47,097 nucleotides of DNA from a virus. The first letter of the stretch is position 1. Each line of letters opens with the position of its first letter. The stretch lies in IMG/VR virus record IMGVR_UViG_3300017963_000093, positions 1-47,097 of that record. One strand, given 5' to 3'. The position numbers and the translations under genes are program-made. The notes below the pieces were generated by a model, which made no database searches, was not told the origin of the DNA, and was given only the letters and a program-made list of their open reading frames with translations. Below are positions 3,383 to 47,097 of this stretch, one piece after another.

Positions 3383-3877
3383 TTACATGGTGGGAACGTG
3401 AGGGTATACTACTTGATCAATCACCCCATGCCGACGCGCCTCTTCTGAGCCGAAGTAGGTCGTCGCCGCAATCCGCTTCCGCCACCAATTCTTCCGGTGG
3501 TTGGTGCACTTGGAAAGAATATTCAGATATTCTTGTTCAAGCCAATCGAGCTCATCTCGCTCGGCATCGATCTCTCCTTTGCCGTGAATGCCCGTCATCT
3601 CTGCTGAGGAGGGGTGGACCATGAACCTGGTCCGGGGTGTGGCCAGTCGCTTGGCGGCCACGGCCAGGATCGGGACCGCGGCCGAGAAGCACTGTCCGGT
3701 GGCGATCACGCAGCAGTCATGTTCCTGGAGGGCGTCAATACAGGCACACATAGTGTACAAACACCCACCCTCACTGCTGAGGTAGATCACGTCCGGTTTC
3801 TGTTTAATACAGGTCAGTAACCCACCTCCTACATCGCCGGTGTAAACCGCGATCTTAGGCCTCTTTGTGACGCTCAC
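3383..3877 (-). CDS. ClpP-like serine protease (possible prohead or regulatory protease)
   Basis: 164 residues, close to the ClpP core. The triad is visible: Ser65 in GQCFSAAVPI, His88 in RFMVHPSS, and Asp154 in EEARRHGVIDQVV. The SSEGG at 34-38 corresponds to ClpP 'NSPGG'. Phage ClpP-like proteins usually process the prohead and lie beside portal or capsid genes; this one is instead the last gene of the late block, about 20 kb away, next to a holin-like protein. It overlaps the preceding gene by 23 bases. It could be the head protease moved out of place, or act on host or lysis targets. It converges on the DegT gene, and the 54 bases between them show no clear terminator. Confidence 0.8.
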   Translation of the reverse strand: MSVTKRPKIAVYTGDVGGGLLTCIKQKPDVIYLSSEGGCLYTMCACIDALQEHDCCVIATGQCFSAAVPILAVAAKRLATPRTRFMVHPSSAEMTGIHGKGEIDAERDELDWLEQEYLNILSKCTNHRKNWWRKRIAATTYFGSEEARRHGVIDQVVYPHVPTM

Positions 3878-34076: not shown

Positions 34077-34396
34077 TTAACTTCCCAGACCTTGCCTTTA
34101 CAGAGACCGAGGTTCATTCCGCGGTTGAGCTCAGGTAGGAGCCATAAAATCAGGATCCCCTCTACTCGAAGCCTTGACACCAGCTCGTTGATGTGGTATA
34201 CTATAGCATGAGTAAATGGTTTCTCCTGGTGCTGGATCAGTCGCTGATTCACATTGTACGTTTGTCCGACGTAAAGCAACTTGTCCTTCTGATACAGCAG
34301 GTAAACGCCGGCGATGTTGTCAACCACAGCGCCCCTCTGGTACTCTGACCGTGCCGTCTGGCCGAGGGTGGCATTGACCATGTCTGTAACAGTCAT
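33998..34396 (-). CDS. GIY-YIG endonuclease
   Basis: 132 residues. The N-terminal GVYLLYQ and LLYVGQT are the GIY and YIG strands; the catalytic Arg lies in NVNQRLIQH, the Glu in RLRVEGILI, and LLPELNRG follows. After about residue 105 the sequence is a basic run-on that lies over the small terminase start. Freestanding GIY-YIG nucleases of phages act as homing enzymes or in packaging and host-DNA cleavage; this one is the first gene of the late block, directly before the terminase. Confidence 0.8.
   Translation of the reverse strand: MTVTDMVNATLGQTARSEYQRGAVVDNIAGVYLLYQKDKLLYVGQTYNVNQRLIQHQEKPFTHAIVYHINELVSRLRVEGILILWLLPELNRGMNLGLCKGKVWEVKWRRSGSGPAKRKRTSPSVARRSRPQ
34174..34202 (+). promoter_or_regulatory. 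Sigma-70 promoter for the plus-strand block
   Basis: TTGACA (34174-34179), a 17-base spacer and TATACT (34197-34202) with a TGG just before the -10. It lies antisense inside the GIY-YIG gene and points at the first plus-strand gene (34426), giving a leader of about 215 bases. Confidence 0.8.
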
Positions 34397-36826: not shown

Positions 36827-36955
36827 ATGAAGCATACCATGGCTGCCTGTCTCGTGTACTGGGCCCTGCGCCAGGACGGCCTGTCGCACCGCATGGCTAT
36901 CATGGCTGCGCGGCGTGTGTTCTATGGCTATGACTCAATATGGGAGGTACTATGA
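36827..36955 (+). CDS. Small early protein (42 residues)
   Basis: 42 residues with AAAGGAG upstream and an ATGA overlap with the next gene. Sequence (MKHTMAACLVYWALRQDGLS ...) contains several M, A and R residues and no clear domain. First gene of a strong early promoter; unknown function. Confidence 0.6.
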   Translation: MKHTMAACLVYWALRQDGLSHRMAIMAARRVFYGYDSIWEVL

Positions 36956-37647
36956 AGCTACTAAGTGAATCCAGCGCGAAGATCGCCAAGACCAACAAGG
37001 GCACAGGCTACCTTACTGCGGTACTGTTCCTGGCGCCGCACAAGGAGTCAGGGTGCATGAATACCTGTCCGTATGCGGATGGGTGTGAGGCAACATGCCT
37101 GAATACGTCCGGGCGCCTCAAGTTCGACAGTGCCAGGGCCGCAAGGGTGCGTCGTACGGAATGGTTCAAGAACGACAGGGCCGGGTTCGTTGCCCAGCTG
37201 CACAAGGATATCACGGTCCTGGAACGCAAGGGAAAGCGACTGGGCAAACCCGTTGCGGTACGCCTGAACGGCCTGTCGGATCTGAGGTGGGAACGTATCG
37301 CTCCGGATCTGTTCACCGAACACCCTGACGTACAGTTTTACGATTACACCAAAGGGTTAGTGAGATACCAAGAATGGCGCAGAACTTCTGTTTTCCCAAA
37401 GAACTATCATTTGACCTTTTCTGCCAGTCCAAGTAGTTCAAGGCATTTGAGCGCTATACTACGGTGGGGAGGAACCGTCGCCATGGTATTCCACGACGTA
37501 CCACCCGGACTCGAAATGGAACACGGACATGTGCCCGTGATCGACGGAGACACCCATGACGCCCGCTGGCTGGATCCCAAGGGCGTGATCGTGGGCCTGA
37601 AGGCAAAGGGCGCCGCGGTCAAGAGTTCGGTACAATTTGTGAGGTAA
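36952..37647 (+). CDS. DUF7227-like (phage GP88-type) cysteine-rich protein
   Basis: 231 residues from the ATG at 36952 (GGGAGGT upstream). A CxxTCPYADGCEATC-type cysteine cluster near residue 35-50, KPVAVRLNGLSDLRWE, FYDYTKG, NYHLTFSAS and VIDGDTHDARWLDP ... VGLKAKG match a phage/plasmid family of unknown function. The four cysteines may bind a metal or Fe-S cluster. Family recalled from pattern; no enzymatic role is established. Confidence 0.7.
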   Translation: MKLLSESSAKIAKTNKGTGYLTAVLFLAPHKESGCMNTCPYADGCEATCLNTSGRLKFDSARAARVRRTEWFKNDRAGFVAQLHKDITVLERKGKRLGKPVAVRLNGLSDLRWERIAPDLFTEHPDVQFYDYTKGLVRYQEWRRTSVFPKNYHLTFSASPSSSRHLSAILRWGGTVAMVFHDVPPGLEMEHGHVPVIDGDTHDARWLDPKGVIVGLKAKGAAVKSSVQFVR

Positions 37648-37921: not shown

Positions 37922-38074
37922 ATGGACGATCATGTTGCACTCGACCTGATTCAAGACGTCATTAACGACCAGGACCAGGAAGTCCTTGACGCCCTGGAAC
38001 GGATCCGCGACCTTGTGAAGGACACGGGCCGCGACGTAGTCAGACCGGACATGAAAGCCTACGAGGAGGCGTAA
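37922..38074 (+). CDS. Small acidic protein (50 residues)
   Basis: 50 residues with AAAGGAG 8 bases upstream of the ATG. Rich in D and E, one amphipathic helix (DLIQDVINDQDQEVLDALER). Small acidic early phage proteins often mimic DNA or bind host factors, but nothing specific is visible here. Confidence 0.6.
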   Translation: MDDHVALDLIQDVINDQDQEVLDALERIRDLVKDTGRDVVRPDMKAYEEA

Positions 38075-38104
38075 CCGGAACGTGGGCGGGGCTTTGGATA
38101 TTTC

Positions 38105-38133
38105 TGGACAATTTTACGGTTATGTGTTACACT
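38105..38133 (+). promoter_or_regulatory. Sigma-70 promoter for the DUF932-like gene
   Basis: TGGACA (38105-38110), 17-base spacer and TACACT (38128-38133); the ATG at 38155 follows with an AAAGGAG site. Confidence 0.65.
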
Positions 38134-38154
38134 GGTAGTGAAAGGAGCAAAAAC

Positions 38155-38850
38155 ATGCTTTATGTCGTATCCCACCAGAACCGTCTCGTTCGGAACTCAC
38201 TGGGCCTCCTCGAAGCTGAGGAAAAACTTGCCCACAAGAACTACACCGCTTGCTGCCCCGAGGACATAGCTAAGAAGCTCGAGGGGCGCGGCTATGGGGT
38301 TTCCCGGCAGATCAGGGGCCGCCAGGCCTTCCTGGAGGCGCGGCTCCCTGGGGGCAACCTCGGGGACTACAGGGCAACCGCCAAGATTGCCTTTGATCAC
38401 GCGGGTAAGCGCTCGGTCCGGATCGCACCGGGCGCCTTGAGGATGGCATGCTACAACCAGTTCACGAGTGCGAACCAGATCCGGCTCCACCACTGCGGGG
38501 CGGACATCAAGCGGTTCAATGAGAGGCCCTGGGAGTTCCTGGAGGATCTGCTGGCCCCGGCCGTGGAAATGGCGAACCGTATCGAGGCCCTCCGGCCCGT
38601 CATAAGTAACAACCTGGGCCGCCGCTGGATCCACTGCCTGCTCGGCGGGTACCCGAAGCTCTTGGGTAAGGTCCTGCCCCGGTTCTCCCGGTACTCCCTC
38701 GAGAACAGGTGGATCCCCGGCCCCTGGGCGGTGCTACAGGCCTTCACCGACACCCACTCGCCCACGCTCGAGCGGGCCGTGGGGGAGCTCGTGACGGACC
38801 ACTACCAGGAGCTGGCCGCCGGAATTGTCCCCGAATACCAGCTGAACTAA
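38155..38850 (+). CDS. DUF932-like phage protein
   Basis: 231 residues from the ATG at 38155 (AAAGGAG upstream). The central stretch RSVRIAPGALRMACYNQF ... RLHHCGADIKRF matches the 'RxxPxxxRxxCxNxx...xxxH' core of DUF932/phage-plasmid-like proteins, which are widespread in mobile elements and of unproven function (a role near DNA repair or replication is often suggested). It has its own promoter. Confidence 0.6.
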   Translation: MLYVVSHQNRLVRNSLGLLEAEEKLAHKNYTACCPEDIAKKLEGRGYGVSRQIRGRQAFLEARLPGGNLGDYRATAKIAFDHAGKRSVRIAPGALRMACYNQFTSANQIRLHHCGADIKRFNERPWEFLEDLLAPAVEMANRIEALRPVISNNLGRRWIHCLLGGYPKLLGKVLPRFSRYSLENRWIPGPWAVLQAFTDTHSPTLERAVGELVTDHYQELAAGIVPEYQLN

Positions 38851-38857
38851 GCCCGGG

Positions 38858-38924
38858 GAGCGTGGGTTGGGGGCCCGGCCCCGGGAGCTATGGACCTATG
38901 GAGGTTCGAATCCTCCCACGGTCT
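38858..38924 (+). ncRNA. tRNA-like element after the DUF932-like gene
   Basis: A clear T-arm (GGAGG-TTCGAAT-CCTCC, 38900-38916) is followed by CACGGTC, which pairs with GAGCGTG (38858-38864) with one mismatch, as an acceptor stem. Between them only 35 bases occur instead of about 41; they can form GGGG/CCCC but no standard anticodon arm. It is a degenerate tRNA or a tRNA-like structure; no CCA is encoded. Confidence 0.4.
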
Positions 38925-38961
38925 CTTAACCAGGTAAAAATTACACGGTGTCAAGATTTGG

Positions 38962-38967
38962 TATACT
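38962..38967 (+). promoter_or_regulatory. Extended -10 promoter candidate in front of a stem-loop RNA
   Basis: TGG-TATACT (-10 at 38962-38967), with a weak -35 ATTACA 16 bases upstream. Transcription from here would cover the 12-bp inverted repeat (39019-39104). Confidence 0.45.
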
Positions 38968-39018
38968 ACCCATATTGGTAGGTTTTGAGTGACTGACCAC
39001 GGAAACAAACGACTTATG

Positions 39019-39104
39019 GTGCGGCGGGGAGTAGGATACTCTCCCCCCTTCCCCCGTTTAATTAAAGACAGGGAATATATAATATAGGAAAATCCCCGCC
39101 GCAC
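39019..39104 (+). ncRNA. Candidate structured RNA with a perfect 12-bp closing stem
   Basis: GTGCGGCGGGGA (39019-39030) pairs perfectly with TCCCCGCCGCAC (39093-39104). Inside, GGGGAGTA and TACTCTCCCC can form a second hairpin, followed by an AT-rich loop. No gene fits the region 38925-39124. It could be a regulatory RNA, a processing signal or a terminator for upstream genes. Confidence 0.5.
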
Positions 39105-39124
39105 TGTAAATCGTTATTTTTCGA

Positions 39125-39153
39125 TTGACCACCAGTCTAAAATGTTGTATACT
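39125..39153 (+). promoter_or_regulatory. Sigma-70 promoter for the pentapeptide-repeat gene
   Basis: TTGACC (39125-39130), 17-base spacer and TATACT (39148-39153). The ATG at 39171 is preceded by GGAGGTGA, so the leader is short (about 10 bases). Confidence 0.8.
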
Positions 39154-39170
39154 CTTACTGGAGGTGACTT

Positions 39171-39779
39171 ATGAAAAACGGGTACAAAATCGAACCGGGG
39201 GCCAACCTGAGCGGAGCCGACCTGCGCGGAGCCGACCTGCGCGGAGCCAACCTGAGCGGAGCCGACCTGCGCGGAGCCAACCTGAGCGGAGCCGACCTGC
39301 GCGGAGCCGACCTGTACGAAGCCAGCCTGTGCGGAGCCAACCTGTACGAGGCCGACCTGTACGGAGCCATCCTGTACGAGGCCGACCTGAGCGGCGCCAA
39401 CCTGCGCAGAGCCAACCTGCACGAGGCCAGCCTGCGCGAGGCCAACCTGTATGGGGCCAAACTCCCCCACTACAAAATCTGTCCCGAAACCGGCGCCTTT
39501 GACGCCTGGAAGGCAGTCCACCACCGGGGTGGGAAGGCCGTGATCAAGATCCGGATCCCAAAACGCGCTAAGAGGTGCTCGTCGTTGGTAGGGCGTAAGT
39601 GCCGGGCCTCTTTTGTTAAAGTCCTGGAGGGTGCCGGGATTTCCCCTACCCACTCAAGGAAACTAACTTACATAAAGGGCCAAATTGTGAAGGCCCACGA
39701 TTTTTCCGACGATCCCCGTGTCGAGTGTGCACCGGGGATCCACTTTTTCATGACCAAGCAAGAAGCCGAGGAGTGGTAA
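39171..39779 (+). CDS. Pentapeptide-repeat protein with C-terminal DUF5758
   Basis: 202 residues. Residues about 10-100 are uninterrupted pentapeptide repeats of the A(D/N)LxG/xA type ([20 protein letters not shown] ...), which fold into a right-handed quadrilateral helix that can mimic DNA. The C-terminal half ([36 protein letters not shown]) matches DUF5758, often attached to such repeats in phages. Possible roles are gyrase or host-enzyme binding, or protection; not shown. It has its own strong promoter and ribosome site. The DNA repeats of 15 bases are coding, not CRISPR-like. Confidence 0.85.
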
Positions 39780-39781
39780 AT

Positions 39782-40027
39782 ATGGACGAGGTGTGCCGTT
39801 TCATCCTGACCGGCTGTAACGATTGCCCGACCGCAATACGAGAGACTGCTTTGGAGCTCATGCTCCTTTCTCGGGCCCAATGCCCGATCGCCGCGCTCGA
39901 AGAGATCGCCGTCGAGCTCAAGGCGGGCCGGAAAATCTCTGCAATCAAACTGATCCGGACCCTGACCGGCGCCGGGCTGGTCGCATCCAAGCACCTGGCC
40001 GAGGATTTTTTGGGTGCCCGGCCGTGA
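39782..40027 (+). CDS. Small protein with ribosomal L7/L12 C-terminal-like motif
   Basis: 81 residues from the ATG at 39782, 2 bases after the previous stop. The C-terminal part (KAGRKISAIKLIRTLTGAGL then VASKHLAEDF) resembles the L7/L12 C-terminal 'KxxAIKxxRxxTGxGLxxAKxLVE' helix pair, seen in some small phage proteins. The N-terminus has three cysteines. Such a protein could touch the translation factor site of the ribosome or simply reuse the fold; uncertain. Confidence 0.5.
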   Translation: MDEVCRFILTGCNDCPTAIRETALELMLLSRAQCPIAALEEIAVELKAGRKISAIKLIRTLTGAGLVASKHLAEDFLGARP

Positions 40028-40329
40028 GCGTCCTGTCCGACTTCATCGCCGACCAGCACCGCCGACACCCCGGGGCCCAGCGCCGGCCACCGCACCGGCG
40101 CGGGCGCCCCCGGAACCTGAAGCTCAGCGACGTGGAGCGCCAGGCCCTGGACTACTTGGCCCGGGCCTGGGGCGTCCCGCACGCGGAAGCGTTCCGTCAG
40201 TGCCTCCGTGCGGTGCTGGGGGCCGACTTCCACTATCGACTGACCAGGCAGTCCAAACTACAAAAAGGCGCCTATTTCCTGGAGCCTGACAAGGCGCCCG
40301 AGATGCCCTACAGGGAGGTAAAGCCATGA
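40024..40329 (+). CDS. Possible ribbon-helix-helix DNA-binding protein
   Basis: 101 residues from a GTG at 40024 (GTGA overlap with the previous stop). A basic N-terminus (RRPPHRRGRPRNLKLSDVER) and the following helices (QALDYLARAWGVPHAEAFRQ) look like the strand-helix-helix of RHH/CopG-like repressors. May regulate the early genes; the fold is a guess. Confidence 0.4.
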   Translation: MSVLSDFIADQHRRHPGAQRRPPHRRGRPRNLKLSDVERQALDYLARAWGVPHAEAFRQCLRAVLGADFHYRLTRQSKLQKGAYFLEPDKAPEMPYREVKP

Positions 40330-40469
40330 ACGTCCGCACCGCACAAGAGCTCGCCAAGGAGCTGTACTACGCCCGGGCCAGGATCGGCGGCCGGCGGCTC
40401 AAGATTAAGGACCTGTACGCCCTGCCTGGCGACAAGTTCGAGGTGACCTGGTCGGAGGAACCGGAGTGA
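40326..40469 (+). CDS. Small hypothetical protein (47 residues)
   Basis: 47 residues with GGGAGGT upstream; ATGA overlap with the stop before and GTGA overlap with the next reading frame. Basic, one helix (RTAQELAKELYYARARIGGR). Unknown function. Confidence 0.55.
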   Translation: MNVRTAQELAKELYYARARIGGRRLKIKDLYALPGDKFEVTWSEEPE

Positions 40470-40718
40470 AGCTCGAAGACATTGGCTTCTACACCCTCAG
40501 CGACGAGCGTGCCCGGGGTCCAACACAACACGTTCCATGTCCTGGCGATGCGGGACGCGATCCGGCGCCACGCCATTGCCTGGTGCGAGGGGGACGAGGT
40601 GGTGTGTCGGCCCAAGCCGTTCACGGTGGCCGTCATGTTCCTCCAGGGGGACTGGGAGTGGTGGACGCACCTGACCCTGGAGGAATTTTTCGCTTGCTTT
40701 TCGGACAGAATATGTTAA
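40466..40718 (+). pseudogene. Small gene split by an apparent +1 frameshift near 40512-40516
   Basis: Starting at the GTG 40466 (coupled by GTGA), the first frame reads MKLEDIGFYTLSDERA and then becomes low-quality, while the second frame from about 40509 to 40718 reads a sensible protein (HNTFHVLAMRDAIRRHAIAW ... GDWEWWTHLTLEEFFACF). Removing one base in the CCCGGGG tract joins them into one 83-residue protein. Either a sequencing/assembly indel, a true mutation or a programmed shift. The opening IGFYTLSDERA resembles the leader of some phage radical-SAM proteins, but no CxxxCxxC is present. Confidence 0.5.
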
Positions 40719-40786
40719 TCTTATGTATCGTGGTTTTTCTGGTCGCCCACCCGATCTTCTTGGTGTGGGCAGCACACAGGAGGTAA
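40712..40786 (+). CDS. 24-residue single-span membrane peptide
   Basis: MLILCIVVFLVAHPIFLVWA followed by AHRR. It starts inside the end of the gene before; its stop lies in AGGAGGTAA, the ribosome site of the next gene. The topology (one hydrophobic helix, basic C-terminus) fits a tiny membrane effector. Confidence 0.4.
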   Translation: MLILCIVVFLVAHPIFLVWAAHRR

Positions 40787-40788
40787 AT

Positions 40789-41118
40789 ATGCTGTATATT
40801 TTCAGAGACGGGCTGGACAACCAACTTGGGATTTCGGAGCAGGAACCGAGGCGCCGCACGTATGGCCCAGGTCTGATCGCTGAAGACGTGGTCTGGAACA
40901 ATGCCGCGGCGGAAGTGGTACTGGCTGGTCTGGCCCTCGGACGGTCGCCGGACACGGACGAGATCTTCGAGATCGGCTCACTCTCGACGGGGGTCAACAC
41001 GTACCGACTCGTGGAGAAGAAGGTCGAGGTCAAGCCCGAATACGTCCGGGAGCACACGGAACCCAACCTGGATCCGAAGACGGAGCGTCTCTGTACCCGG
41101 TGTGGGAACCGGCGATGA
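40789..41118 (+). CDS. Hypothetical protein before the ATPase
   Basis: 109 residues with AGGAGGTAA before the ATG at 40789. Mixed sequence ending in CTRCGNRR (zinc-knuckle half). The stop overlaps the ATPase ATG (ATGA at 41115). No family recognised; perhaps an accessory of the replication ATPase. Confidence 0.55.
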   Translation: MLYIFRDGLDNQLGISEQEPRRRTYGPGLIAEDVVWNNAAAEVVLAGLALGRSPDTDEIFEIGSLSTGVNTYRLVEKKVEVKPEYVREHTEPNLDPKTERLCTRCGNRR

Positions 41119-42572
41119 CCCATTTCCTTGACACTTCCCTCATTGACGCCGGGAACCCCTCCGCGGCGGCCGAGGTGGAGCGAGCGCTCCGCGAGTACCA
41201 GAACGGTTCGTTCTACCGGGACGAAGCGGGGAACTTCCTCCACCTCGGCACCAAGGACGGGCTCCCCTTCGCCCACCGGATCGCTCCGCGTCGGGGCATC
41301 GGCCCGGCGGTCCGGGACATGGGAGTGATTTGTTTCGGGCGGGCCAATCAACACGGCACCGTCACACCCCTGCCCTACTTTCAACAAGGTCCGTACATCA
41401 AGTGGCTCGGGAACCTATTGGAGGGCGAGCTCCTGTCACTGTTCCCGCTCGCCCGGGGGCTCTACAACCTCCCGGCGGCGGTCCTCGATGAGGGGCGCCT
41501 GGTGCAGGCCCACGCCGGGTACCACCACGAACTCCTCTTCACCGGTAAGATGACCACCCCGAAGCCGGGGCCGCACCTGAAGGCGTGGCTGTCCGCGCTC
41601 GAGTACGCGGAGCCAATTTATAGGGACAACCTCTATGGTTACATTCTATCAAGTTTTGCAAGAGCCAGCTGTCCGTACTTCCCTTTCCTCGTGGTGGACG
41701 GCGTCTCCCGAAAGGTCGGGAAATCTTCTCTCGTTGATAGCCTTTGCTATCTCCTTACGGGACAAATTAAAGCACCTTTCACACTCTCCGGAGGTGAACA
41801 AGAGCTCGAGAAAAGAATTGCAGGGAGTTGTGGAAACGCTGGCCCTAATGTTATATATGTTGACAATGTGCGACCGCTTCGCGGCCAGACCCGCGCAATT
41901 CGATCACAACTACTGGCTCAAGCAGCTACCTCCCCAACTGTGTCAGTCCGACCAGTCTACGGAAAGCGACCCGAAGTCCTCGACTACCCCATCCTGATCT
42001 TCACCATGAACGGGGCCGCGGTCGAGCACGACCTGCACGATCGCGTGGTCCGGGTGGTCCTGGCCGGCGAGAGCGGCCGGTACTTTAAGCCGCACCCGCT
42101 CGAGTACGTCAAAGCGCACCGAGAGGAGCTGCTCCAAGAGATCATCCACGCACTCACAACTGCCGAGATGGACACGAGTTATGCCAAGTCCAGGTTCGGC
42201 CAGTTCGAGTGGATTGCCCGGGCCGCGGCCAAGACGATCGGGCTCGAGCCGGACTACGACCCGGACGTGGCCGACTCGACCGACAGCACGGTCCAGGAGC
42301 TCCGAGTCCTGGTCGAGGACATGGTGCAGGACGCCGGGGGCCAGCCAGTGGCGCTCTCGAAAGTCGCCAACATGGTGTTCTTTAACCAGTCGCTTCAGGA
42401 GTTGGCCGCGGCGCTCTCGATCGGGCCCACGCCCACGGACCGGTCCCGGACCGAGGCGTTGCGGCGGTTCGTCGAGAAGCTCACCGGCCGGAAGCTGTTC
42501 AGTGAGGGGCGGTCGTTTGAGTTCGTGCTTGACAAGTCGGAAGAAAAAGGGTATACTTTAGGTGTGAAATGA
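41115..42572 (+). CDS. SF3-like replication ATPase/helicase
   Basis: 485 residues from the ATG at 41115. Walker A is GVSRKVGKSSLVDSL (about 195-209), Walker B NVIYVDNV (about 245-252), and YPILIFTMNG follows as the sensor strand with a polar residue (N). An arginine-finger candidate is RVVRVVL. The layout agrees with superfamily 3-like or D5-type phage helicases; no primase domain is obvious in the first 190 residues, though it may be degenerate. Codons in 41620-41960, which contain the Walker motifs, are less GC-rich than the rest. A promoter lies in its 3' end. Confidence 0.7.
   Translation: MTHFLDTSLIDAGNPSAAAEVERALREYQNGSFYRDEAGNFLHLGTKDGLPFAHRIAPRRGIGPAVRDMGVICFGRANQHGTVTPLPYFQQGPYIKWLGNLLEGELLSLFPLARGLYNLPAAVLDEGRLVQAHAGYHHELLFTGKMTTPKPGPHLKAWLSALEYAEPIYRDNLYGYILSSFARASCPYFPFLVVDGVSRKVGKSSLVDSLCYLLTGQIKAPFTLSGGEQELEKRIAGSCGNAGPNVIYVDNVRPLRGQTRAIRSQLLAQAATSPTVSVRPVYGKRPEVLDYPILIFTMNGAAVEHDLHDRVVRVVLAGESGRYFKPHPLEYVKAHREELLQEIIHALTTAEMDTSYAKSRFGQFEWIARAAAKTIGLEPDYDPDVADSTDSTVQELRVLVEDMVQDAGGQPVALSKVANMVFFNQSLQELAAALSIGPTPTDRSRTEALRRFVEKLTGRKLFSEGRSFEFVLDKSEEKGYTLGVK
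42529..42557 (+). promoter_or_regulatory. Sigma-70 promoter for the tRNA-like genes
   Basis: TTGACA (42529-42534), 17-base spacer and TATACT (42552-42557), inside the end of the ATPase gene. The predicted start (about 42564) is some 12 bases before the first tRNA-like gene. Confidence 0.8.
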
Positions 42573-42575
42573 ACC

Positions 42576-42648
42576 TCTGCCATCATCTAACAGGCAAGAC
42601 CGTCGCGTGTACACGGGCGGAATGGGGGTTCAAGTCCCTCTGGCAGAG
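42576..42648 (+). tRNA. tRNA-like gene 1 (Tyr GUA? anticodon arm disturbed)
   Basis: Acceptor TCTGCCA (42576-42582) pairs with TGGCAGA (42641-42647); an eighth pair is possible. D-arm TCT-AACAGGCA-AGA with the canonical A14, GG and A21; T-arm GGGGG-TTCAAGT-CCCTC; five-base variable loop. Numbering puts GUA (Tyr) at 34-36 with U33, but the anticodon stem keeps only three of five pairs (two mismatches next to the loop). Total length (73) is standard. No CCA encoded. It may be a functional unusual tRNA, a decayed one, or a decoy. Confidence 0.5.
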
Positions 42649-42705
42649 TCTCGTTGGCCGCGAATTGGGACAGCGCAGGCTGGAACCTTGGAGCGGCCCC
42701 TTTAT

Positions 42706-42833
42706 CGCGGTGGTAGCTTAATGGAAGGGCAACGGAGTCAAATATGGAGGCCAGTACGGAAGCCCGCTGGTCGGCTCTATAAAAGCACCGGCAGTTAGAG
42801 CCGGAGATCAGGGTTCGATTCCCTGCGCCGCGA
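42706..42833 (+). tRNA. tRNA-like gene 2 with a ~55-base insertion before the anticodon arm
   Basis: Acceptor CGCGGTG (42706-42712) pairs with CGCCGCG (42826-42832); a D-arm AGCTTAATGGAAGGGC and a T-arm CAGGG-TTCGATT-CCCTG are clear. An anticodon-type hairpin CCGGC-AGTTAGA-GCCGG (42788-42804) exists, but a ~55-base insertion, itself able to form GGCCAG/CTGGTC, lies between D-arm and this hairpin, and position 33 would be G rather than U. It may be split by an intron-like insertion or be non-functional. Between the two tRNA-like genes GGCCGC/GCGGCC (42656-42698) forms a further hairpin. Confidence 0.45.
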
Positions 42834-42843
42834 TCTTTAAACT

Positions 42844-43155
42844 ATGAAATACCTTAACAAATCATTCAGTGTCGGCGTATCAATGTCCGAAGAGGACTAC
42901 GACAGAATTTTTAACAAAGGGCGTCCACCGACCCTACACGCCGGGTGTGGTTATTGGGGAACCACCGATCATAAAGTATGGCGGTGTTGCCGGTGCGGGG
43001 CCGAATGGAAACCGAAAGGAGCAGGAGATGGAATTTCCAAAGGACAAGACGATCTACCGGGAGGTGACGATCAAGTCGAGCGACCCGGCGATCGAGGACG
43101 CGACGTGGGTGCTGGGGTTCAGCATCAACGGGATGACGATTCGTCGGAAGGGTGA
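42844..43155 (+). CDS. Zinc-ribbon protein with run-on C-terminus
   Basis: 103 residues. The first ~62 look real: CGYWGTTDHKVWRCCRCGAEW is close to a zinc-ribbon (two CxxC-like pairs). The rest lies over the start of the 43028 gene in another frame. No ribosome site is visible before the ATG at 42844, directly behind the tRNA-like genes (an alternative ATG is 42883). Overlap of 128 bases with the next gene. Confidence 0.45.
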   Translation: MKYLNKSFSVGVSMSEEDYDRIFNKGRPPTLHAGCGYWGTTDHKVWRCCRCGAEWKPKGAGDGISKGQDDLPGGDDQVERPGDRGRDVGAGVQHQRDDDSSEG

Positions 43156-43222
43156 GCAGGACCAGTTGCGGCTGTCCTGGCGGTCGATCGTTGGGCATGC
43201 GTTGATTCATAGGGGGAAGTAA
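43028..43222 (+). CDS. Small hypothetical protein (64 residues)
   Basis: 64 residues from the ATG at 43028 (AAAGGAG upstream). Beta-like and basic at the end. Its stop overlaps the next ATG (TAATG). No family recognised; co-transcribed with the DNA polymerase. Confidence 0.6.
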   Translation: MEFPKDKTIYREVTIKSSDPAIEDATWVLGFSINGMTIRRKGEQDQLRLSWRSIVGHALIHRGK

Positions 43223-43416
43223 TGGAAGTCACAATTACAGCATGGACGCAGTACGCAACGAAGGGCTCTCGCTGGTTGTGTACGGTAGACGGAAGCCGTG
43301 AGGGCCGGGTGCCGGGCTGGCTACTTCAGAAGCTCATGGGCGGAGAAAAACCTGATCCTAACAAGACGTATGAGATCACCGTCCGCACCGAAAGGGTCGT
43401 AGACAATGGACTTTAG
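43222..43416 (+). CDS. Small hypothetical protein before DNA polymerase
   Basis: 64 residues with GGGGGAAG before the ATG. Overlaps the polymerase start by 11 bases. Beta-like (EVTITAWTQYATKGSRWLCT) with a basic middle. May be a polymerase accessory; no recognised domain. Confidence 0.55.
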   Translation: MEVTITAWTQYATKGSRWLCTVDGSREGRVPGWLLQKLMGGEKPDPNKTYEITVRTERVVDNGL

Positions 43417-45553
43417 TAACGTCGTCGCCTTCGACACCGAGACAACCCTGATCCCTGACCGGACCTCGATCACCTCGAAGTCCGGGCGGGCGGTGAACAC
43501 GTCGCCGTACGAGACGCCGAAGTTGGTGCTTGGTTCAGTGGCGGACGGTAAAGGTGCCGATGTGGCGCCGACCTACGAGTACGTGCGCTGGATCAAGGAT
43601 CTCCTATCAAATCCGGACATGCACCTGGTCGCTCACAACCTGGCCTTCGACCTCGACGTCCTCCGGGCCGCCGGCCTGGACTGGTCCCTGGTCGAGCGAG
43701 CCGTCGAAGAGGGCCGCCTGCACGACACCATGTACTTGGACCTCCTGTACAGGATCGCCACCGGCCAGTTCGATGAGCCACACTACAACCCAACCACCAA
43801 GAAGTGGGCGCCCTACCCCCTGCACTCCAGGTCCCGGCCCGGGAGCTCCCTCGACGCCCTGGCCCAACGGTACCTCGGGCGGGAGTTGGATAAGAACCCA
43901 CATATCCGGTTGGGGTACGGCCAGTTCCTGGGCCAACCGATCGCGGCCCTCCCGCGGGAGTTCATTGACTACGCCAAGCAGGACGCGGAGGCCACCTATG
44001 ACATCTTCGTCAAGCTCATGGAGCTCTACGAGGAGCTCGGTGCCAAACACCTCCTGTCTGAGAACCTCCAGGTGAAGGCGGCCCTGGCGATCCACGAGAT
44101 GGACAAGCGGGGGGTTGCCGTGAACCGGCCCCTCGCTGGCAAGCTCCTTGACGAGTTCAAAAAGGAGATGCTCCCTCTCCAACACAGGATGGTGGAGATC
44201 GGGCTGGGGCAGTGGAAGGCCAAGCCAAATACTACAACGCGAAGCCCTGCCCTGTCACTGGATCGGAAGTTTACAACGTGGACTTATCAGGACAATATGC
44301 TTCAGCGGTTTAAGGTGACCCGTAAAGGAAAGTTTGTGGAAAAAGCGGAGCCGTCCTTCCACACCAAAACGAAAGCCATCCAAGCCCTGCTCGCCCCCTT
44401 CGCCGACACAGACACCCCTACGCGGAAGGACGGCTCCCTCGCTTTAGAGTACGATTACTGGCACGAAAAGCTCCCGAAGTCCGAGGAGCGCCTACAGGAG
44501 TGGTTGAAATATGGAAAGTTGCAAAAAGTCATCAACACCTATCTCGATCTGTACAGTCGTTGTGATGAAGTCTTTCCACGCTGGTTTACTATTGGTGCGC
44601 GGAGTGGACGAATGGCTGCCGGGCGCCCTAATCTCCAGAACATCCCTAAAAGACGAGCTGGTATCCGTGCGTTATTTGTACCGAGGCCTGGTAAGCGGTT
44701 TATTCGGGCAGATTACTCAGCCATGGAAATGTACACTCTGGCTGAAGTCCTCGCTCATCGTGATGTCCGAGGCCCGCTCTACGACATCCTCACGAAAACC
44801 GACGCCGACATCCACCGCGAAGGCGCTGCGCTCGTGCTTGGCAAGCAACCAGAAGATGTTACTGGGGAGGAGCGCCAGGGACAAAAAGTCCTACATTTCG
44901 GCGTGCCTGGCGGACTCGGCCCGACTAAACTGGCAGATTACGCTCATACAACCTATGGTGTCTCGTGGACGGTGGAGGAAGCTAAAAAGAAGCGTGCGGC
45001 GTTTCTTGACAAGTTTTGGGACATCCAGGCGTACCTGAACTTCTTCCGGAAGGGCATGGACTACGCGCTTCGGCAGGTGTCCGGGAAGGGCAAGCGAGAG
45101 TGGGCCCAGCAGCTCGGGATCACCGACTGGAACGTCCTCCGGGCCATGGTGAATCACCCCGACCCGGACGTGGCGGCGGTCGGGATCGCGGCCGAGCGGC
45201 TCCCGTCGATCGAGCTCCCGACCGGGTTGCGGCGCTCGAAGGCCCGGTTCACTGAGGTGGCCAACACCGGCTTCCAGGGGCTCGCTGCGGCGGTGCTGAA
45301 GGAGGCGCTGTGGCGGTGCCAAAAGGCCGGGCTGCGGACTGTCCTGGTCGTTCACGACGAGATTGTAGTGGAGACCTATAACGATCCAGGCTATTATGAA
45401 GGGACCAAACAAGTTCTGGCCAAGTGTATGCTTACCGCATTCTCCGACGTCTGCCCCGAACTCGGCCCCCACGCGGGCGTCGAGATCGAGGGCCCGCTCG
45501 ACTGTTGGGGGAAGGCGACGGACCTGGACGGGAAACCGCTTGACATTATATAG
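43406..45553 (+). CDS. polA: Family-A DNA polymerase with 3'-5' exonuclease
   Basis: 715 residues. Exonuclease: FDTET (9-13), HNLAFDLDVL (about 76-85), and YAKQDAEATYD (about 188-198). Polymerase: motif A ADYSAMEMYTLAEVL (about 434), motif B QGQKVLHFGVPGGLG (about 492, where the sugar-selecting aromatic is F) and motif C VHDEIVVE (about 649). All catalytic aspartates are present. Motif A lacks the usual Q-I-E (SAMEM instead of SQIEL). The replicative enzyme of many podoviruses. Bases 44215-45020, including motifs A and B, are visibly less GC-rich than the flanks. A promoter follows directly. Confidence 0.9.
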   Translation: MDFSNVVAFDTETTLIPDRTSITSKSGRAVNTSPYETPKLVLGSVADGKGADVAPTYEYVRWIKDLLSNPDMHLVAHNLAFDLDVLRAAGLDWSLVERAVEEGRLHDTMYLDLLYRIATGQFDEPHYNPTTKKWAPYPLHSRSRPGSSLDALAQRYLGRELDKNPHIRLGYGQFLGQPIAALPREFIDYAKQDAEATYDIFVKLMELYEELGAKHLLSENLQVKAALAIHEMDKRGVAVNRPLAGKLLDEFKKEMLPLQHRMVEIGLGQWKAKPNTTTRSPALSLDRKFTTWTYQDNMLQRFKVTRKGKFVEKAEPSFHTKTKAIQALLAPFADTDTPTRKDGSLALEYDYWHEKLPKSEERLQEWLKYGKLQKVINTYLDLYSRCDEVFPRWFTIGARSGRMAAGRPNLQNIPKRRAGIRALFVPRPGKRFIRADYSAMEMYTLAEVLAHRDVRGPLYDILTKTDADIHREGAALVLGKQPEDVTGEERQGQKVLHFGVPGGLGPTKLADYAHTTYGVSWTVEEAKKKRAAFLDKFWDIQAYLNFFRKGMDYALRQVSGKGKREWAQQLGITDWNVLRAMVNHPDPDVAAVGIAAERLPSIELPTGLRRSKARFTEVANTGFQGLAAAVLKEALWRCQKAGLRTVLVVHDEIVVETYNDPGYYEGTKQVLAKCMLTAFSDVCPELGPHAGVEIEGPLDCWGKATDLDGKPLDII

Positions 45554-45568
45554 AAAGGGTGGTATACT
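45540..45568 (+). promoter_or_regulatory. Sigma-70 promoter after the DNA polymerase
   Basis: TTGACA (45540-45545), 17-base spacer and TATACT (45563-45568) preceded by TGG. The next ATG is at 45574, so transcription would begin at or beside the start codon, giving a leaderless mRNA. Confidence 0.8.
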
Positions 45569-45573
45569 GTAGT

Positions 45574-45906
45574 ATGAAGAACGTCAGTCCTGAGTTGATC
45601 GGCCTCACCAACGCGCCTGGTGCTTCGCCGATCGAGAAGCAGATCGCAACCCTTCTGGCGCTGAACCTGGAGGTACTCCTCGATGTTCAAAAGGATCTTC
45701 GAGACCTTTTTGCTTTGCTTGGTGATCGTGGCAGCACTGTCCGTGGCGGTGATTCTGGTGACCGGCCCGTTCGTGGTGATCAGCAACGCGATCAAGTACA
45801 AGTCCGACGCCCCGATTCGGTATATGGAAAAGCAATTCCAGCTTCAGATGTACTTCCGGGCGCTGGAAACAAAGCGTCTCCGCGCCGAAAAAGGACTTCG
45901 AAGTGA
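45574..45906 (+). CDS. Small protein, possibly translated from a leaderless mRNA
   Basis: 110 residues. The first ~54 look like a normal helical protein (MKNVSPELIGLTNAPGASPI, TLLALNLEVLLDVQKDLRDL); from 45740 onwards it is R/G/D-rich out-of-frame-looking sequence lying over the membrane-protein frame. It stops 3 bases before the nuclease ATG. Its true end may be earlier. Confidence 0.45.
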   Translation: MKNVSPELIGLTNAPGASPIEKQIATLLALNLEVLLDVQKDLRDLFALLGDRGSTVRGGDSGDRPVRGDQQRDQVQVRRPDSVYGKAIPASDVLPGAGNKASPRRKRTSK

Positions 45907-46243
45907 CCTATGGGCGCCGTTAGACACAGCCCCACAGCTCTCCAACAGTTCCTCGACGTCTGCGAGCGACAGTTCTATTACAAGAGAGTGCTCAAGCTCC
46001 CCGAGCCGTCCAGTGAGTACCTCGAGAAAGGCAACATCTACCACGACGCCCTTGCTACCGTACTGGGTAAGAAAATATGCCCTCCACTCCAGGCCATACC
46101 CAACCTCGAAGCAAATATTGAACGGCTTAAAGAGAAAGTCTTCCCGTGGCTCGATCCCGAGGCTATTGAGGAATGGGCCAAGAAGTACTATTGCGGCAAG
46201 ATTGATCTCATTTCCAAGGTTACCCCGGTCACCAACGAGCTGA
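45683..46243 (+). CDS. Membrane-anchored protein, end uncertain
   Basis: A GGAGG site 9 bases before the ATG at 45683 and a strong hydrophobic helix (FETFLLCLVIVAALSVAVIL and on to about residue 35) followed by a charged helical part support a real protein of about 75 residues. After that the frame runs over the nuclease gene as S/T/R-rich sequence to 46243. A one-base change in the AAAAA at about 45889 would end it at 45906. Function unknown. Confidence 0.45.
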   Translation: MFKRIFETFLLCLVIVAALSVAVILVTGPFVVISNAIKYKSDAPIRYMEKQFQLQMYFRALETKRLRAEKGLRSDLWAPLDTAPQLSNSSSTSASDSSITRECSSSPSRPVSTSRKATSTTTPLLPYWVRKYALHSRPYPTSKQILNGLKRKSSRGSIPRLLRNGPRSTIAARLISFPRLPRSPTS

Positions 46244-46611
46244 ACGAGATCGTGTCGAACCGTCCTGGGCGGTGTGTTGTCGACTGGAAGATAGTGTTTA
46301 AGAAGCCGAAATGGTCCCAGAAGAAAGCCGACGAGTCGATCCAGCTGGCCTTGTATGCGATCGAGACGGGCGCTCACAGTGCTGCTTACGTCGAGATCCC
46401 GGACAACCCTGTGTGGCCGATCCGGACATTCGTGACACACTACCCGGACTATTACCTGAAGCGGTGGAAGCGGTGGCTCGACGCCCAGTTTGCGGCCATG
46501 GACTCTCGGGGGACCGACGAGGCAGCTTACCGTCTCGCCAGTGTAAACCACGGGCTCTGTTCCCCGCGGTGGTGCCCGTACTGGAAGCGGTGCCCGGGAG
46601 GTGAAGGATGA
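45910..46611 (+). CDS. PD-(D/E)XK nuclease, RecB/Cas4-like, with four cysteines
   Basis: 233 residues. His45 in GNIYHDALA, Asp99 in GKIDLIS, the DWK (125-127) that replaces the usual ExK, and QLALYAIETG (145-154) as the QxxxY motif. Cys18 plus Cys217, 222 and 228 at the C-terminus form the four-cysteine pattern that holds an Fe-S cluster in Cas4 and AddB-type nucleases. Probably resects DNA ends in phage recombination; no other CRISPR genes exist here. The OB-fold-like protein downstream is a frequent partner. Confidence 0.85.
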   Translation: MGAVRHSPTALQQFLDVCERQFYYKRVLKLPEPSSEYLEKGNIYHDALATVLGKKICPPLQAIPNLEANIERLKEKVFPWLDPEAIEEWAKKYYCGKIDLISKVTPVTNELNEIVSNRPGRCVVDWKIVFKKPKWSQKKADESIQLALYAIETGAHSAAYVEIPDNPVWPIRTFVTHYPDYYLKRWKRWLDAQFAAMDSRGTDEAAYRLASVNHGLCSPRWCPYWKRCPGGEG

Positions 46612-46679
46612 TGAGTGATGAGGTTTTCTTAGTCATTGCTGTTTTATTCATCGCCTCGATGTTGTTGGGGGACAGATGA
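46608..46679 (+). CDS. 23-residue membrane peptide
   Basis: ATG at 46608 (a second at 46611) overlaps the nuclease stop, and the TGA overlaps the next ATG at 46676. The peptide MMSDEVFLVIAVLFIASMLL plus GDR is a single hydrophobic helix. It may be a small membrane effector or only a translational coupling peptide. Confidence 0.4.
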   Translation: MMSDEVFLVIAVLFIASMLLGDR

Positions 46680-47097
46680 AAGACTGTCTCCCAGAGCTCA
46701 ACACCCTCGCCGCAGTGGCGGTTGCTGAGGCGGTCAAGTACGTTGCCGAAGTCGAAGGCGTGCAGGACGGCGCCGAGAATATAAGCCCGGAGAAGGCCGA
46801 GCGTTTCAAAACCGTCCTGGTCCTCATGTTACAGAACATGATGATCTACCTGTTAAGGAATCTACCAGAGCCTGTCGCCTGGCAGCTTATCAACAGTTCC
46901 GTCGGCTTTGCAAAACGCATAGTCGAACAAACCAGTTCAGAAGGAGGCCCAGATGCCGAACATCAACGATACCTACAGTTCCCTGATCAAGAAGGAAGAC
47001 CTTCAGGAGTCCCCCAAGGTCTACACGATCACGGGCTCCGAGATCCAGGAGTTCGAGAACAAGAAGAAGGGCGGGGTAGATCGGAAGATCATCCTGC
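46676..47097 (+). CDS. Hypothetical helical protein, runs over the junction to base 130
   Basis: The ATG at 46676 overlaps the previous stop. About 90 residues before 46953 look like a genuine helical protein (ELNTLAAVAVAEAVKYVAEV; LVLMLQNMMIYLLRNL). The frame has no stop before the OB-fold-like gene and continues out of phase, through the junction, to TGA at 128-130 (142 residues in all). No family recognised. Confidence 0.5.
   Translation, partial: MKDCLPELNTLAAVAVAEAVKYVAEVEGVQDGAENISPEKAERFKTVLVLMLQNMMIYLLRNLPEPVAWQLINSSVGFAKRIVEQTSSEGGPDAEHQRYLQFPDQEGRPSGVPQGLHDHGLRDPGVREQEEGRGRSEDHP
46953..47097 (+). CDS. OB-fold-like phage protein, N-terminal part (continues at base 1)
   Basis: ATG at 46953 with AAGGAGG 7 bases upstream. 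Reads MPNINDTYSSLIKKEDLQES and on through the repeat, then continues at base 3 of the window to the stop at 303-305. See the entry for 1-305 for the domain description. Confidence 0.8.
   Translation, partial: MPNINDTYSSLIKKEDLQESPKVYTITGSEIQEFENKKKGGVDRKIIL
46975..47097. repeat. Right copy of the 123-bp terminal direct repeat
   Basis: Identical to bases 1-123. Removing one copy gives a 46,974-bp circle. Confidence 0.97.

Follow-up and report, generated by a model that had tools for sequence, protein, structure and literature searches.

We found two adjacent tRNA-like genes on the plus strand of an uncultivated podovirus-like phage, at positions 42576-42648 (gene 1) and 42706-42833 (gene 2) of the window, by which we mean the whole 47,097-base virus record analyzed here (G+C content, 58.7%). 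Both genes keep a seven-pair acceptor stem, a five-pair T stem, and the elbow residues U8, A14, G18, G19, U54, U55, C56, and A58, but neither has the standard anticodon arm of five pairs with U33 and a purine at position 37: gene 1 has C37 and 3 of the 5 pairs, and gene 2 has G33. The features needed by RNase P, the CCA enzyme, and elbow-binding proteins are kept in both genes, and U33 and purine 37 are near-universal rules for decoding tRNAs. Because both genes keep the processing and elbow features and both break the anticodon-arm rules, we tentatively favor the reading that they are tRNA-derived genes giving RNAs that undergo tRNA processing but take no part in decoding. Nor is this phage alone in having an interrupted tRNA gene; such genes are frequent in viral contigs.

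The tRNA-like gene pair and its promoter

The window holds a podovirus-like gene set with a terminase, a portal, a 2,237-residue protein, and a DNA polymerase A gene, the last of which (43406-45553) lies downstream of the tRNA-like pair. The upstream neighbor is a primase/helicase-like frame ending at 42572, whose sole match among 50,697 phage records was Pas55 of phage phiAsp2 (27.8% identity; two records of phiAsp2). Downstream, a small frame that we named zinc-ribbon-like from its sequence starts at 42844; the frames at 42844-43155 and 43028-43219 overlap by 128 bases, and an early end or a sequence indel is possible. Elsewhere in the window, 3386-3877 and 36940-37644 encode a Clp-protease-like protein and a Gene product 88 family protein, and 39171-39776 a protein that reads as pentapeptide-repeat-like.

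A sigma-70-type promoter, TTGACA-N17-TATACT, lies on the plus strand at 42529-42557, inside the 3′ end of the upstream frame (stop at 42572). It matches the consensus at 11 of 12 positions, and gene 1 begins 18 bases past the −10 box; the first-pass annotation, which had a perfect promoter about 20 bases upstream, was thus right about the position and not about the perfection. The exact sequence occurs three times in the window (42529, 34174, and 45540) and in none of 20 shuffles, and the promoter at 42529-42557 looks real as judged from these counts. At the other two copies (34174-34208 and 45540-45574), an ATG stands five bases past the −10 box, which suggests leaderless mRNAs in this phage, and the sigma-70-like form of the promoters suggests a bacterial host. 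Between the end of gene 2 and the frame at 42844 we saw nothing like a terminator on the plus strand, so transcription from this promoter probably continues through the downstream genes as far as the DNA polymerase. The promoter had been called dedicated, which was not borne out, and its strength had been taken to argue against decay of the tRNA-like genes; since it is probably shared with downstream replication genes, that argument is weak. The spacer that separates the genes (42656-42698) also has a stem-loop, GGCCGC...GCGGCC (z = −1.4), perhaps a third element in a worn-down state or a site of processing.

Gene 1 comprises 72 bases plus G73 and does not encode CCA. Its acceptor stem, TCTGCCA/TGGCAGA, forms 7/7 pairs and is followed by T8 and C9, and behind a variable region of GGAAT the T arm, GGGGG TTCAAGT CCCTC, has a stem of 5/5 pairs (one G-U). 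The D stem, ATCT/AGAC, with the D-loop AACAGGCA, forms 3/4 pairs and has an A-C at 10-25; of the perfect acceptor, D, and T arms described earlier, the acceptor and T arms therefore stand and the D arm does not. The two mismatches reported in the anticodon stem were confirmed. In the arm GTCGC GTGTACA CGGGC (42602-42618), the stem GTCGC/CGGGC has 3/5 pairs, and the mismatches, at 30-40 and 31-39, adjoin a loop, GTGTACA, with U33, GUA, and C37. The tip of this arm is a 10-base perfect palindrome, CGTGTACACG (42606-42615), and RNAfold preferred a longer anticodon-side stem with a GUAC tetraloop. Gene 1 scored 25.9 bits against the Rfam tRNA family (RF00005), below the curated cut-off of 29. By our own cloverleaf scoring it was the top candidate on both strands of the window (39; next, 30), against 30-38 for the best of each of eight shuffled windows; taken alone, gene 1 is only modestly significant. 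All three of its non-standard pairs fall outside the acceptor and T stems, a placement with a chance of 0.063 if random, which is weak evidence.

Gene 2 carries A73 at 42833 and likewise does not encode CCA. It reached 34.6 bits with the Rfam tRNA family over 42707-42832, 5.6 bits in excess of the cut-off of 29 (E = 0.0013 for the 47-kb window and 4227 families). Its acceptor, CGCGGTG/CGCCGCG, pairs 42706-42712 with 42826-42832 (7/7), with an extra base, G42713, before T8; the T arm of the Rfam alignment, CAGGG TTCGATT CCCTG (42809-42825), has a 5/5 stem; and the anticodon arm, CCGGC AGTTAGA GCCGG (42788-42804), has a 5/5 stem with G33, UUA at 34-36, and G37. The good acceptor and T arms and the insertion of about 55 bases noticed on first reading were thus upheld, the extra length being 51-57 bases depending on placement. 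Its location before the anticodon hairpin fared less well: the Rfam alignment puts the extra bases in the D-loop directly after G18G19 (42725-42780; 55-56 bases), with GCUU paired with AAGC, and the alternative, in which GCUU pairs with GGGC and the insert sits at the 26/27 junction (42732-42787), came second (score of 18 versus 21). The borders are not fixed, since any start of the cut from 42725 to 42733 gives an equally good score.

Removal of the insert restored all D- and anticodon-stem pairs of gene 2, and the best cut scored 25; when the core was dinucleotide-shuffled 2000 times, 5 shuffles scored as high. The restored gene has the perfect stem CCGGC/GCCGG, but also G33 in the loop AGTTAGA and the extra base before T8. 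Left uncut, gene 2 has a minimum-energy fold of −49.9 kcal/mol (z = −2.1; 3/200 shuffles as good) with acceptor, D, extra, anticodon, and T arms, which matches the 26/27 arrangement. Folded alone, the insert did no better than shuffles (z = −0.85), and no copies of it were found elsewhere in the window or in the loci retrieved. In Rfam searches of the tRNA-like region, no group I or II intron matched at the cut-off or at E values up to 10, and tmRNA models, standard or permuted, stayed below the cut-off (tmRNA_permuted, 9.7 bits versus 47). Standard ARAGORN called no tRNA on the locus; run with introns allowed, as had been proposed as a check, it called only 42705-42835, the gene 2 region, with a different parse.

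Interrupted tRNA genes in other viral contigs

We scanned viral contigs for D-arm and T-arm motifs separated by 76-106 bases, which yielded at least 121 matches in at least 120 stretches; 120 segments were usable, one having been dropped as too close to an end. Among these matches listed, the acceptor stem closed over the gap with 7/7 pairs in 34 of the 120 segments, compared to 0.94 expected when the 3′ ends were permuted. Removing the insert beat all 60 shuffles in 23 of these 34 and did not in the other 11; two of the closing segments (L024 and L082) are near copies. The proposal of an intron-like or interrupted tRNA is thus supported for gene 2, given its restored fold and the many interrupted viral tRNA genes.

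A second, more general scan covered 213 loci plus the window (2.03 Mb) and gave 75 hits, from which 61 unique cores were left after 8 hits ending on a normal tRNA had been dropped. The strict acceptor rule kept gene 2, with its extra base, out of this count. For the 27 unique cores with a score of at least 25, the insert lay in the 5′ anticodon stem (14), in the anticodon loop (10), across the loop and the 3′ stem (2), or in the D arm (1). The last, L026, is a D-arm/D-loop case with a clean anticodon loop, CTCTAAA (CUA), which would read UAG; L091 is a further case of a D-loop insert, with one acceptor mismatch. U33 and purine 37 were restored in 22 of the 27 well-scoring cores, a count to be read in light of the scoring, which itself rewards these letters.

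One insert recurs and was defined by a hairpin with five or more pairs whose end lies 0-3 bases ahead of [AC]CNGC[AG]A. This hairpin-ACNGCAA element was present in 18 of the 61 unique interrupted cores, compared to 0.05 expected from shuffles; the letters of the hairpin vary while the pairing is kept. It sits in the anticodon arm, where it often follows position 29 and is flanked by exon ends such as ACG and GC. Loci with it include L090:4656-4952, L128:310-395, L050:551-940, L018:10690-10783, L019:9507-9818, and L129:190-408, among others. The element is carried by the cultivated Aeromonas phages Aeh1, PX29, Ah1, phiAS5, and phiWae14, and also by a 735-kb uncultured phage, where it occurs among normal tRNAs. 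In the stretches examined, Aeh1, phiAS5, and PX29 have three consecutive interrupted or doubled tRNA-like genes. The records annotate these interrupted genes as tRNA-Val, tRNA-Leu, tRNA-OTHER, or tRNA-Ala, or not at all. Gene 2 of the window lacks the element.

Other kinds of insert were seen as well. Those at L018:8080-8190, L024:928-1013, L077:455-543, and L129:49-165 have a second T-arm-like hairpin; each seems to be a minimal tRNA half nested in a tRNA, like the Lak intron that possibly encodes a tRNA. Another type, at L031:1031-1257, L120:3863-3957, L095:881-977, and L034, has GGTTA near the 3′ end in all cases and AACATC or a variant near the 5′ end in several. The genes at L042:4541-4653, L042:12000-12091, and L121:6617-6919 have the acceptor stem AGTCAGG in common, similar T arms, and unrelated middles, as if one tRNA frame held different cargoes. 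Four related tRNA-like genes (L059:6143-6236, L088:10383-10474, L107:3902-3993, and L115:5923-6015) have a common insert that centers around GTTGCGATTTAAG and CTTCGGAAC, with variants.

Relatives of the locus and known systems

Searches of viral contigs with the DNA polymerase, the primase-like protein, and the terminase returned only L002, a near-identical 14-kb contig; placed by its terminase match, it covers ∼25.1-39.3 kb of the window and leaves out the tRNA-like locus. Portal alignment gave 80 loci at 20-28% identity, and no polymerase match was found in 30 chosen records (3 named phages and 27 of the 80 portal loci). With the primase, 11 loci aligned at 25-29% identity. On these 11 loci, L002, and L132, ARAGORN called no tRNAs, and Rfam gave no matches on 10 of the 11 (all except L221) and L132. 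BLAST of 38000-47097 against phages had no match. Thus, no close relative covering the locus or carrying the tRNA-like pair was found in these viral searches.

BLAST of genes 1 and 2 against phages gave mostly T-arm matches (E values of 0.05-0.6). The pattern of the gene 2 3′ half had no match in viral sequences and matched two bacterial loci, a tRNA-Ala in an array of 36 tRNAs on a planctomycete (Isosphaeraceae) contig (L212:4387-7817) and a tRNA-Arg of an actinobacterium, neither of which is convincing as the parent of gene 2. In the small Curtobacterium phage Parvaparticeps (L226:868-1256), two odd tRNA-like genes lie behind a promoter-like site and upstream of a primase; one, a tRNA-OTHER of 67 bases, has a shortened anticodon arm, and the other, unannotated, weakly resembles the anticodon part of gene 1 (26/5000 shuffles as good). 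We rejected this phage as a relative: it is the best pick of 50,697 records and has no detectable polymerase or terminase in common with the window.

Phage tRNA introns are already known. In the part of the work available to us, those of the Lak megaphages, ∼540-kb phages that infect Prevotella, were reported in 2019 and called "enigmatic," and one of the introns possibly contains a tRNA gene of its own (Devoto et al. 2019, PMC6784885). As far as that text goes, the Lak genes and gene 2 alike are phage tRNA genes with an intervening sequence that a standard bacterial tRNA search misses; unlike the Lak case, the contig here is 47 kb, the insert lies in the D-loop or at 26/27 and holds no inner tRNA, and the loop has G33. 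The gene pair is thus an unusual member of a reported kind. The accessible sections of a 2021 Lak paper mention tRNA introns only as the reason for eukaryotic tRNA search settings (PMC8346664), and those of a jumbo-phage review treat RNA ligases as tRNA repair tools and do not discuss tRNA introns (PMC7824862).

The genes of the Aeromonas T4-like phages resemble the locus in having a single acceptor stem over an insert and odd tRNA-like genes side by side; their inserts lie in the anticodon arm and carry the hairpin-ACNGCAA element, whereas gene 2 is without it. The Aeh1 genome paper, in the portion at hand, lists tRNA-Asn(GUU), tRNA-Val(CAC), and three predicted tRNA pseudogenes, and the only introns in that portion are group I (PMC1524935); the parts seen of a T4-related genome review likewise treat introns as group I (PMC2993671). 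Phage tRNAs with altered anticodon loops evade host nucleases, according to the available text of van den Berg et al. (2023, PMC10264068). Those tRNAs are like genes 1 and 2 in having an altered anticodon arm with the rest of the tRNA kept, but as described there they are decoding tRNAs with mutations, whereas the arm of gene 1 is broken and that of gene 2 has no U33. Theta ribozymes also are RNA elements linked to phage tRNAs; in the excerpts available they sit at tRNA 3′ ends, the words "insert" and "intron" do not appear (PMC10879173), and the gene 2 insert is internal. These excerpts gave no support for a link between them and gene 2. Among the matches listed in the open-access literature (bioRxiv aside), we saw neither a description of an insert in the D-loop of a phage tRNA nor one of the hairpin-ACNGCAA element.

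Readings of the gene pair

On the reading that we tentatively favor, the two tRNA-derived genes would head an early operon and would both be transcribed from the TTGACA-TATACT promoter. Their RNAs would be cut at the ends as tRNAs are and receive CCA from the host; neither would decode, and gene 2 would keep its insert as an extra arm. Any function might then rest on the tRNA fold by itself, for example if the RNAs served tRNA-binding proteins as decoys or as substrates; a decoy, proposed on first reading against anticodon nucleases, is one possible use of a non-decoding tRNA. Alternatively, they might mark where processing frees the downstream mRNA, 10 bases ahead of its ATG (42844). The G33 of gene 2 and the C37 of gene 1 break decoding rules, whereas in most of the interrupted viral tRNAs that score well, cutting out the insert brings back U33 and purine 37. 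Against this reading, the promoter may serve the downstream genes only, and a tRNA pair in mid-decay would look much alike. Decay and a spliced intron stand close behind as serious rivals.

Decay, to which we give somewhat less credence, would make these former phage tRNAs, one hit by an insertion and the other by anticodon-arm mutations, retained only through their position at a transcribed operon head. Gene 1 lies below the Rfam cut-off and gene 2 only slightly above it; G33, C37, the extra base before T8, and the A-C pair at 10-25 point the same way, and gene 2 would have G33 even without its insert. It also fits that no relative with a conserved pair was found in the viral searches and that tRNA pseudogenes are predicted in Aeh1 (PMC1524935, as far as available). 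Less easily explained by decay are the pairs of gene 2, all intact once the insert is removed, and the complete acceptor and T stems of both genes, with lesions in the anticodon region (0.063 for gene 1). Splicing, in which a host or phage nuclease and ligase, or the RNA itself, would remove the 51-57 bases of gene 2 to leave a working tRNA, we consider unlikely on balance. Cutting does restore the fold, interrupted viral tRNA genes are far more frequent than in permutations, L026 is another D-loop case with a clean CUA loop, and Lak phages have tRNA introns (PMC6784885, in the part available). However, the spliced product would carry G33 and an extra base, and the insert has neither the recurrent element nor a match to a group I or II intron in Rfam. 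Moreover, searches of 20 window proteins with Pfam and 10 with PHROGs, a part of all frames, found no RNA ligase or kinase, and 26 of the 27 well-scoring inserts elsewhere are in the anticodon arm. That both cloverleaves are accidental is highly improbable: for gene 1 alone, one of eight shuffled windows comes within a point of its score, but gene 2 exceeds a curated cut-off with a low E value over the 47 kb and 4227 families, and two adjacent same-strand matches lie just behind a promoter. For gene 2, a chance fold is already refuted by the Rfam score.

A broader proposal, which we regard as doubtful, counts gene 2 as a divergent representative of a broad and hardly described class, the compact (∼45-60 base) tRNA introns of bacterial viruses. 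Several unrelated insert types would all act alike in that class, breaking the anticodon or D arm of a phage tRNA and then being removed or deliberately kept; gene 1 would be the non-decoding partner of gene 2.

Standard tRNA finders overlook interrupted genes of this kind or label them pseudogenes. The lists behind phage tRNA counts, and behind the debate over what phages carry tRNAs for, are therefore incomplete. If the inserts are excised, bacterial viruses possess a route of tRNA splicing of which we found no account in the literature searched; if the inserts stay in, phages produce non-decoding RNAs with the shape of tRNAs.
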